A DNA stretch of 64,000 nt from Actinomycetes bacterium (GTDB lineage: Bacteria > Actinomycetota > Actinomycetes > Jiangellales > Jiangellaceae). The notes below the pieces were generated by a model that was not told where the DNA came from, ran no database searches, and was given only the letters and a program-made list of their open reading frames with translations. Where the stretch lies: contig JAJYTA010000001.1 in NCBI GenBank assembly GCA_021793295.1, positions 1 through 64,000 on the forward strand, read 5' to 3'. Shown piece by piece: positions 56,718 through 59,796 of the stretch (its first letter is position 1; every line of letters starts with the position of its first letter). Made by a program: the position numbers and the translations under genes.

Positions 56718-57748
56718 TGCGAGATCCGCGCTCTCTGCCTAAAGCGCACCTGCATCTGCACTTCACCGGCTCGATGCGCCATGCCACCCTGCTCGAGCTC
56801 GCCGACGAGCACGGCGTCCGGCTGCCGGATTCGCTGCGCCACGAGTGGCCACCCAAGCTGTCCGCATCGGACGAGAAGGGCTGGTTCCGCTTCCAGCGCC
56901 TGTACGACCTCGCCCGCTCGGTGTTGCGCACCGAGGCTGACGTCCGCCGCCTCGTGCTCGAAACCGCGCAGGACGAGGCCGCTGAGGGCTCGCGCTGGCT
57001 CGAGATCCAAGTCGACCCGTCCGGGTATGGCGCCCGATTCGGGGGCATCACCGCTTTCACCGACCTGGTCCTCGACGCCGTCCGGGCGGCCGAGGCGCAG
57101 ACCGGGGTGGGGATCGCCGTCGTCATCGCGGCCAACCGCACCCGCCACCCGCTGGATGCCCGCACGCTGGCCCGTCTGGCCGCCCAGTACGCCGGCCGCG
57201 GCGTCGTCGGGTTCGGCCTGTCGAACGACGAGCGCCGCGGCGTCATCGCCGAGTTCGCGCCGGCTTTCAAGATCGCCGACCGGGCGGCTCTGCTGTCCGT
57301 GCCGCACGGCGGCGAGCTGCTCGGCCCGAGCAGCGCCCGCGCATGCCTCGACGACCTGGGGGCACACCGCCTCGGGCACGGCATCCGTGCGGTCGAAGAC
57401 CCGGCGCTGCTCGAGCGCATCGCTGCTGCAGGCGTGACGCTGGAGGTGTGCCCGGCGTCGAACGTCAGCCTCGGCGTCTACCGCCGGCCGGCTGACGTCC
57501 CGCTACGTGCGCTGCTCGACGCCGGGGTCCGCGTGGCGCTCGGCGCCGACGACCCGCTGCTGTTCGGTTCCCGCCTGGTCGAGCAGTACGAGATGGCGCG
57601 CACGGTGCTCGGGTTCGGCGACGACGACCTCGCCGCGCTCGCCCGTGGATCCGTCGAAGGCTCGGCGGCACCGGCCGACGTACGCAAAGAGATCCTCACC
57701 GGCATCGATGCCTGGTTGGCCGCAGCGCCCGGCTCAGCCGGCGACTGA
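56717..57748 (+). CDS. Adenosine deaminase family protein
   Basis: The 343-residue amidohydrolase has the N-terminal metal motif HLHLHFTG, the HGGELLGP Glu region, the RLGHGIRA His, and a final GADDPLLFG. These match adenosine deaminases, which convert adenosine to inosine, but adenine or other aminopurine substrates are possible. It is translationally coupled to the aminotransferase (TGATG) and its 3' end overlaps mshB by 15 bases tail to tail. Confidence 0.9.
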   Translation: MRDPRSLPKAHLHLHFTGSMRHATLLELADEHGVRLPDSLRHEWPPKLSASDEKGWFRFQRLYDLARSVLRTEADVRRLVLETAQDEAAEGSRWLEIQVDPSGYGARFGGITAFTDLVLDAVRAAEAQTGVGIAVVIAANRTRHPLDARTLARLAAQYAGRGVVGFGLSNDERRGVIAEFAPAFKIADRAALLSVPHGGELLGPSSARACLDDLGAHRLGHGIRAVEDPALLERIAAAGVTLEVCPASNVSLGVYRRPADVPLRALLDAGVRVALGADDPLLFGSRLVEQYEMARTVLGFGDDDLAALARGSVEGSAAPADVRKEILTGIDAWLAAAPGSAGD

Positions 57749-58543
57749 CACCGCGGCATCCCCGGCACCGAGCTGATCGAGGAGCCCTGGGGCACCGGTG
57801 CGCCGGTACCACTCGTAGCGGTAGGCCTCGTCGAACTGGGCGTGCTCGACGTCGTCGGGCGTGATCTGACTGGCATGCGTCGCGATGGCGATCCGTTTGG
57901 CGTCGAGCTCGGCGCGGGACGCCTCGATGGTCAGCGTGATCTGCTCCCCCGCCATGCCGATCGGCGACCCGGTCGCCAGCGACGCCGCATGGACCAGGTG
58001 CGTGCCGGCCGCCGGACCGAGAACGTGCTCGCGGTCCACCGTCGACTCGTACGCCGGGATGCCGGTCATCCGGGCCGCGGCGGCACCGATGCGGTACGCC
58101 GCGAGGTGGTCCGGGTGCCCGTAGATGCCGCCGTGGTCGTCGTGCACGATCGCCTCGGCTCGTTCCTCGTCGATCAGGGCGGCCAGTCGACGCGCGATGC
58201 GTTGCGGATCGGCGGCGGCCAGCGCGTTCGGGTGGACGTTGTCCACCGCGCCCGGCAACCCGGAATCACGATGGCCGAGCAGCACCAGGCGCTGCGCTCC
58301 GAGCAGGTCCGCGGCGCGTTCCAGCTCGGCGACCCGCCGCTGGGCCATGGTTTCTCCCGCGGCCAGCGGAACATAGGCCTCCCCGAGTTCACCCAGGGTG
58401 GCGGTGACGAGTACGACGCGCGCACCGGCGTCGGCGAGCCGGCGCATGGTGGCGCCGGTGAAGATGGCTTCGTCGTCGGGGTGGGCGTGCAAGACGATGA
58501 CGGCGCGCCCGCGAAGGTCGGCCCGGGAGGATTCGAGGAACAT
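57734..58543 (-). CDS. mshB: PIG-L/LmbE deacetylase, probable MshB
   Basis: MshB deacetylates GlcNAc-inositol in mycothiol biosynthesis. The 269-residue product has the zinc motif HAHPDDEAIFTGAT (with the catalytic Asp) near the N terminus and the third ligand in HGGIYGHPDHLAAYR. Length and motifs fit MshB, though mycothiol-conjugate amidase is a close relative. The 183-bp gap before murB contains a polycysteine leader ORF on the same strand. Confidence 0.88.
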   Translation of the reverse strand: MFLESSRADLRGRAVIVLHAHPDDEAIFTGATMRRLADAGARVVLVTATLGELGEAYVPLAAGETMAQRRVAELERAADLLGAQRLVLLGHRDSGLPGAVDNVHPNALAAADPQRIARRLAALIDEERAEAIVHDDHGGIYGHPDHLAAYRIGAAAARMTGIPAYESTVDREHVLGPAAGTHLVHAASLATGSPIGMAGEQITLTIEASRAELDAKRIAIATHASQITPDDVEHAQFDEAYRYEWYRRTGAPGLLDQLGAGDAAVSVAG

Positions 58544-58606
58544 CGTTGCCTGCTGTCGGAAACTGGGGCCGGACGGCCCGAACGGTCGGAATCTGAGTGA
58601 TACGAC

Positions 58607-58696
58607 TCAGCGACAACAGCAACAAGACGCGCCGAAGCCGGCCACGAGGGCGGCGTCGAAGTTCAGCGCGATGGTCACGAGCGCAGATTCTGCCAT
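58607..58696 (-). CDS. Polycysteine leader peptide upstream of mshB
   Basis: This small ORF is absent from the track. It encodes ALVAGFGASCCCCR at its end, with four consecutive Cys codons (TGT TGC TGT TGT) just before the final Arg and stop. The ATG at 58696 gives 29 residues; a GTG at 58678 gives 23 and is preferred because G/C third-position bias begins there and a CAGAAT -10-like box lies eight bases upstream, compatible with a leaderless mRNA. The ORF ends 63 bases before mshB. Polycysteine leaderless ORFs in mycobacteria act as cysteine-responsive attenuators of downstream genes. Confidence 0.65.
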   Translation of the reverse strand: MAESALVTIALNFDAALVAGFGASCCCCR

Positions 58697-58725
58697 ACCG
58701 GCCGAGCGCTGCGCAGCAGAACGGT

Positions 58726-59796
58726 TCACAACGAGCAGCCGACGAGCATCGGTTCGTTCACCAGCTCGACACCGAAGGTGCGACGGACCCCGTCGCGGAC
58801 CTCCCGGGCCAGCTCCAACAGGTGTGCGGTGGTGGCATTGCCACGGTTGGTCAGGGCCAGGGTGTGCTTGGTGGACAGCGAGACGTCGCCGTGTCGGCCT
58901 GTATACCCACGGGTGAAACCGGCGTGCTCGATGAGCCAGGCGGCGCTGACCTTGACCCGTCCGTCCGGCATCGGCCAGCGTGGAGCGGCCTCGGGTAGTG
59001 CGGCGGCGGCTTCGGCTTCCACGACCGGATTGGTGAAGAACGACCCAGCACTCCAGGTGTCGTGATCGTCCGCCTCGAGAACCATGCCCTTGGCGGCCCG
59101 TAGCCGCAGGACCGCTGCACGCACGTCGCTCAGCGGGGCTCGGTCGCCGACGGCGACGCCGAGGGTTCGCGCCAGCTCCGCGTACCCGACCGGTGCAGAC
59201 AGCGATCCCTCACGCAGCTGATAGCTCACCCGGAGGATCACATAGCGGCTGGAGCCCTTGAAGCGGCTGTCGCGGTAGCCGAAGCGGCAGTCGGCGTTGG
59301 CGAACGTGCGGATGCGATCGTCCTGTCGGTCGTAGGTGCGCACCTGCCACAGCGTCTGGGCGACCTCTTGGCCGTAGGCGCCGACGTTCTGCATCGGCGT
59401 CGCACCGACCAGGCCGGGAATGCCCGAGAGCGCCTCGACGCCCGACCACTCCTCGGCGACGCAGCGCGCCACCAGGTCGTCCCACGGCTCCCCCGCGGCC
59501 GCGTCGACGAGAATCCCGCCGCACGCCGCCAGTTCCCCGGACTCGCACGACGACGAGGCGTCGACGTGCACGCCGCGGGTCAGGACCCGCACGACCGTTC
59601 CGTCGAAGCCTTCGTCGGCGACCACGAGGTTCGAGCCACCGCCCACGACCAGCACCGGTTCGCCGCGCCGGTCGCAGTCGCGCACCGCGGCCACCAGGTC
59701 GTCGTCGCTGCTGACGTCGACAACGCGGGTGGCCGGACCGCCCAACCGCAACGTCGTCAGGTCGCCGAGCCGGACACCGACGGCTTCACTCAGCAC
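58726..59796 (-). CDS. murB: UDP-N-acetylmuramate dehydrogenase MurB
   Basis: MurB reduces UDP-GlcNAc-enolpyruvate to UDP-MurNAc with NADPH and FAD. The 356-residue product has TLRLGGPATRVVDVSSDDDL, the FAD site VVGGGSNLVVADEGFDG, and GIPGLVGATPMQNVGAYGQEV. It follows the two dehydratase genes with an 11-base overlap. Confidence 0.96.
   Translation of the reverse strand: MLSEAVGVRLGDLTTLRLGGPATRVVDVSSDDDLVAAVRDCDRRGEPVLVVGGGSNLVVADEGFDGTVVRVLTRGVHVDASSSCESGELAACGGILVDAAAGEPWDDLVARCVAEEWSGVEALSGIPGLVGATPMQNVGAYGQEVAQTLWQVRTYDRQDDRIRTFANADCRFGYRDSRFKGSSRYVILRVSYQLREGSLSAPVGYAELARTLGVAVGDRAPLSDVRAAVLRLRAAKGMVLEADDHDTWSAGSFFTNPVVEAEAAAALPEAAPRWPMPDGRVKVSAAWLIEHAGFTRGYTGRHGDVSLSTKHTLALTNRGNATTAHLLELAREVRDGVRRTFGVELVNEPMLVGCSL

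Follow-up and report, generated by a model that had tools for sequence, protein, structure and literature searches.

In Mycobacterium smegmatis, leaderless open reading frames (ORFs) containing Cys codons attenuate downstream genes via cysteine-dependent elongation (Canestrari et al. 2020, as described in PMC9031893 and PMC4633059). Conserved examples of these mycobacterial polycysteine short ORFs are found before cysA2, Rv0485/MSMEG_0932 and nirA (PMC4633059). The locus analyzed here lies on the minus strand of a 64-kb stretch of DNA from a member of the Jiangellaceae (hereafter the window) and resembles them in four respects: its short ORF is predicted to be leaderless, its Cys codons are contiguous and C-terminal, it is located directly upstream of the next gene on the same strand, and it is conserved across genera. 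It differs in that the target would be a single PIG-L deacetylase gene, in the presence of a conserved TGTGGCANNNT promoter motif, and in the lineages concerned, which are Jiangellaceae, Pseudonocardia, Actinocatenispora, Kineosporia and Frankiales.

A short ORF ending with four Cys codons, an Arg codon and a stop, 63 bases before a gene on the same strand, had been proposed in a sequence-only reading of the window, and its coordinates (58607-58696, minus strand) were confirmed. Read from the ATG at 58696, this ORF encodes 29 amino acids and ends with TGT TGC TGT TGT CGC TGA. Comparison with relatives indicated that the conserved start is instead the inner GTG at 58676-58678, giving an ORF of 23 amino acids (58607-58678, minus strand), VTIALNFDAALVAGFGASCCCCR, which ends with CCCCR. 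The upstream ATG is part of a promoter-like element, and the longer frame is broken in several relatives. The order of elements on the minus strand is the promoter-like element TATGGCAGAAT (58687-58697), 8 nt, the GTG and 22 more codons, of which the four-Cys run occupies 58613-58624 and is followed by CGC and the TGA stop, a 63-nt spacer (58544-58606) ending with CAGCAGGCAACG, and the ATG (58543) of a 269-amino-acid protein (57734-58543). Across loci the leader ORF is 19 to 29 amino acids long, 23 being the commonest length. The terminal Cys/Arg tail is the only part of the peptide that is kept, the 17 to 19 preceding residues being variable; TGC and TGT replace each other within the tail from one clade to another, and the residue stays Cys.

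The promoter-like element is of the -10 type and reads TGTGGCANNNT in relatives. The pattern TRTGGCANNNT-N8-RTG occurs once in the window, for 0.04 occurrences expected. Among 38 orthologous leader loci, 33 carry TGTGGCANNNT, exactly or nearly, with an ATG or GTG 7 to 8 nt further on, and at all 33 this RTG is in the frame of the Cys codons. The spacing of the motif and the in-frame RTG fit a leaderless mRNA, whose transcription start would coincide with, or adjoin, the GTG at 58678. The frame of the leader was checked because of a misleading case met in the same genomes: a short ORF of the type CCPYR.CCW before the sulfite reductase gene proved to be an out-of-frame reading, the conserved ORF lying in another frame and being of the RRHVDY type. 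The studied leader passed this check. The other matches to a CCC run followed by a stop that were checked, in the studied genome and its relatives, included none that was leader-like, and most were out-of-frame readings of larger genes. The conserved ORF before sulfite reductase, which carries the motif LLLLVSRRHVDYGRMDSMLC (or MLHASILFLVVRRHVDYRRVSSMMCLAC), stands ahead of the sulfite reductase-cysH operon in six Jiangellaceae genomes (L322-L327); at L322 (G000:C186:12000-19500, minus strand) it occupies the region about 80 to 250 nt ahead of the sulfite reductase gene. It resembles the studied leader as a short ORF ahead of sulfur genes, but it has only one or two Cys, a conserved internal motif and another promoter region, and its sequence is unrelated.

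A whole-genome search located the downstream gene in 20 of the 22 family genomes, the two exceptions being small and incomplete; one family member carrying the gene, Jiangella anatolica, was found by name among public genomes. Using as a fixed criterion an ORF of at most 45 codons with three or more Cys among its ten C-terminal residues, no farther than about 250 nt upstream, we detected a Cys-tail short ORF ahead of 20/20 Jiangellaceae orthologs and of 16 of the 20 remaining members of the same clade, from Pseudonocardia, Actinocatenispora, Kineosporia and Frankiales (for example MTERTSGVGVARCCPGCRCCCS and MTRELACRCSCCCCR). The same criterion applied to upstream regions gave no hit for 60 PIG-L genes outside the clade or for eight Mca genes, and was satisfied by 0.4% of shuffled upstream regions. 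On the PIG-L tree, the distribution of the leader required 4 changes, against 26.6 with shuffled labels, and the leader-bearing genes fall inside one clade (support 100/91) that spans several actinobacterial families. The genes upstream of the leader vary, murB being found here and others in Jiangella, Pseudonocardia and elsewhere, while leader and gene stay together, indicating that the two travel as a unit. As judged from these comparisons, the leader ORF is real and widely conserved, far beyond chance.

The Cys tail is weak or missing in four members of the clade (L222, L225, L226 and L227). Upstream of position 625 in L225 there is a leaderless-looking short ORF, VIVDGSYWVGRRAHHFDQRCR, with a single Cys; it may be a decayed leader, or a leader of different specificity. 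A clade ortholog in genome G250 (L311, G250:C108:69165-69944) has no leader and is located directly behind a P450-like gene, possibly within a biosynthetic cluster.

The sequence-only reading had taken the downstream gene for a probable mycothiol deacetylase gene, mshB. This identification was rejected on three grounds. The protein, a PIG-L/LmbE-type deacetylase (Pfam PF02585), scored 120.4 bits with the MshB model (NCBIfam TIGR03445), below the cut-off of 224.35; the true mshB of the genome, scoring 373 bits, is located elsewhere (G000:C283:1715-2599) and has no Cys-tail leader; and in a tree of 111 sequences MshB and Mca formed one group, with the studied gene in a separate clade. The protein is not Mca either, with which it has the superfamily in common: it obtained 82.2 bits with the Mca model (NCBIfam TIGR03446; cut-off 277.15), and the Mca genes of the family are not preceded by the leader. 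Nor is the leader a feature of mshB genes, since 20 of 21 true mshB upstream regions lack a Cys-tail short ORF. The one exception (L066, in G010) has a tail of the type GCRCRCH and is probably due to chance. The studied genome also contains mshA (C140, 618 bits) and an additional MshB/Mca-type gene (C320, 187.6 bits with the MshB model), so that mycothiol synthesis is likely present.

On tree and model evidence the downstream gene is a member of a separate, uncharacterised PIG-L clade. Its product shares with MshB the PIG-L fold family, the HPDDE and GHPDH motifs and equivalents of Arg68, Asp95, Tyr142 and His144. HPDDE, RR69-70, RDSG (from R92), Y141, H143, D145 and H146 are invariant in the family alignment. 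The roles of MshB residues in metal binding, catalysis and sugar binding have been described (PMC4101496). From the invariance of the corresponding residues, the substrate of the enzyme is probably an acylated amino sugar, the catalytic and sugar-binding residues of MshB type being also common to other PIG-L enzymes.

We next considered RNA structures that could connect the leader to the deacetylase gene. A few nucleotides before the deacetylase start codon, at the position of the ribosome-binding site, the sequence CAGCAGG (58549-58555, minus strand) is invariant in 20/20 Jiangellaceae loci and complements CCTGCTG, a sequence that the first Cys codons make up. Between the two, uninterrupted Watson-Crick pairing reached 6 to 10 bp in these 20 loci, and in 15 of them no more than 0.5% of the other downstream windows matched as well. 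RNAalifold on the 20 sequences returned the helix between Cys codons and CAGCAGG as the sole helix common to all. This helix showed no compensatory changes in the 20 loci, which is attributable to the Cys codons fixing one of its sides. We relied on exact complementary runs because duplex free energy did not discriminate between positions: in these GC-rich sequences the energies at the ribosome-binding site were not better than those of other downstream windows. Outside Jiangellaceae the complementary runs were mostly 3 to 8 bp and mostly not significant; shorter pairings were noted in Pseudonocardia (TCGCAG/CTGCGA) and in Actinocatenispora (TCGCTGAC/GTCAGCGA). A hairpin internal to the ORF, suggested by single folds, was discarded, as it was not stabler than codon shuffles preserving the peptide (mean z -0.58; 2/30 below 0.05). 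Two hairpins in or next to the spacer had been singled out previously. The CTGAG/CTCAG hairpin over the stop is not conserved in relatives; the GGGCC/GGCCC hairpin is present (about 58566-58579), but is less important than the complementarity between Cys codons and CAGCAGG, which had escaped the sequence-only reading.

Taken together, these features make it quite probable that a leaderless polycysteine ORF acts here as a translational attenuator, tying expression of the PIG-L deacetylase to cysteine supply. Transcription would start at or next to the GTG, and the leader would be translated by leaderless initiation. With plentiful charged tRNA-Cys, ribosomes would pass the Cys codons and be released on reaching the TGA, and the vacated stretch of Cys codons could then pair with ACAGCAGG, just before the deacetylase start, closing the ribosome-binding site. 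When cysteine is short, ribosomes would stall on the Cys codons and cover this stretch; the ribosome-binding site would remain open and the deacetylase would be made. We infer the stalling, the formation of the helix in vivo and the direction in which expression responds to cysteine. The missing compensatory changes in the helix, the duplex energies, the mostly insignificant runs outside Jiangellaceae and the clade members with a weak or missing Cys tail weigh against this reading. The anatomy of the cysteine-responsive attenuator proposed earlier was thus supported by the conserved leader, its in-frame start and its Cys run, while the assignment of mshB as its target was wrong.

Cysteine-dependent stalling could alternatively act on transcription, by way of Rho access or intrinsic termination within the spacer, rather than on the ribosome-binding site. 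The conserved position of the leader and the spacer of 61 to 73 nt in Jiangellaceae, with its GC hairpin, would suit such a mechanism, and a stalled ribosome can also shield RNA from Rho. However, there was no terminator-like site in 58500-58760, and the element kept without change is CAGCAGG, at the ribosome-binding site, rather than a hairpin followed by a U-run. We regard control of transcription as improbable.

Two further explanations give the stalled ribosome no part. The short ORF might yield a functional Cys-rich peptide, binding metal or thiols, the association with the deacetylase passing through this peptide. The retention of Cys in an otherwise diverging peptide, and Cys clusters such as CCPGCCRCC in Pseudonocardia leaders, are compatible with this, but the ORF had no Pfam or NCBIfam match, conservation is restricted to the terminal tail as described above, and in Jiangellaceae the Cys codons match the sequence of the ribosome-binding site; a functional peptide therefore seems very unlikely. 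The other explanation is an untranslated RNA element, a leader binding a protein or a metabolite, to which the Cys run is incidental. It draws on codon usage: TGC is the preferred Cys codon in the window's long ORFs, whereas TGT makes up 59 of the 84 Cys codons in Jiangellaceae leader tails, against 33 of 136 in those long ORFs, a difference whose significance is overstated as the sequences are related. This over-use suggests that the nucleotides are constrained too. An untranslated element is nevertheless hard to reconcile with leaderless starts falling in the Cys frame at every one of the 33 loci and with the interchange of TGC and TGT across clades with Cys retained, and the leader region gave no Rfam match above threshold; we give this explanation almost no credence.

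If the leader is a translational attenuator, it also bears on the function of the enzyme. Its restriction to one PIG-L clade points to a role of the enzyme in cysteine or thiol metabolism, and we infer that it may act in cysteine or mycothiol metabolism. A more specific scheme, which we put forward tentatively and consider rather unlikely, is that the leader marks a thiol-economy enzyme not described before, and that in these actinobacteria cysteine starvation induces a dedicated PIG-L amidase/deacetylase that remodels or degrades mycothiol or a related thiol glycoside, recovering cysteine or re-balancing its precursor.

In mycobacteria, Rv0485 adjoins mshA, so that a link between a leader of this kind and a mycothiol gene would not be wholly new. 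To our knowledge, no PIG-L target of a polycysteine leader has been described. Text searches of the literature, whose reach did not include the original mycobacterial paper, retrieved none. A polycysteine leader with a deacetylase target, and its presence in these lineages, thus appear undescribed, the type of switch being known from mycobacteria. The finding likely extends ribosome-sensed control by cysteine from mycobacteria to several further families of actinobacteria. It would also tie an orphan branch of PIG-L/LmbE enzymes to cysteine supply, providing a testable clue to the role of the enzyme, possibly in the balance between mycothiol and free cysteine, and suggests that orphan enzymes may be placed in pathways by means of their short leader ORFs.
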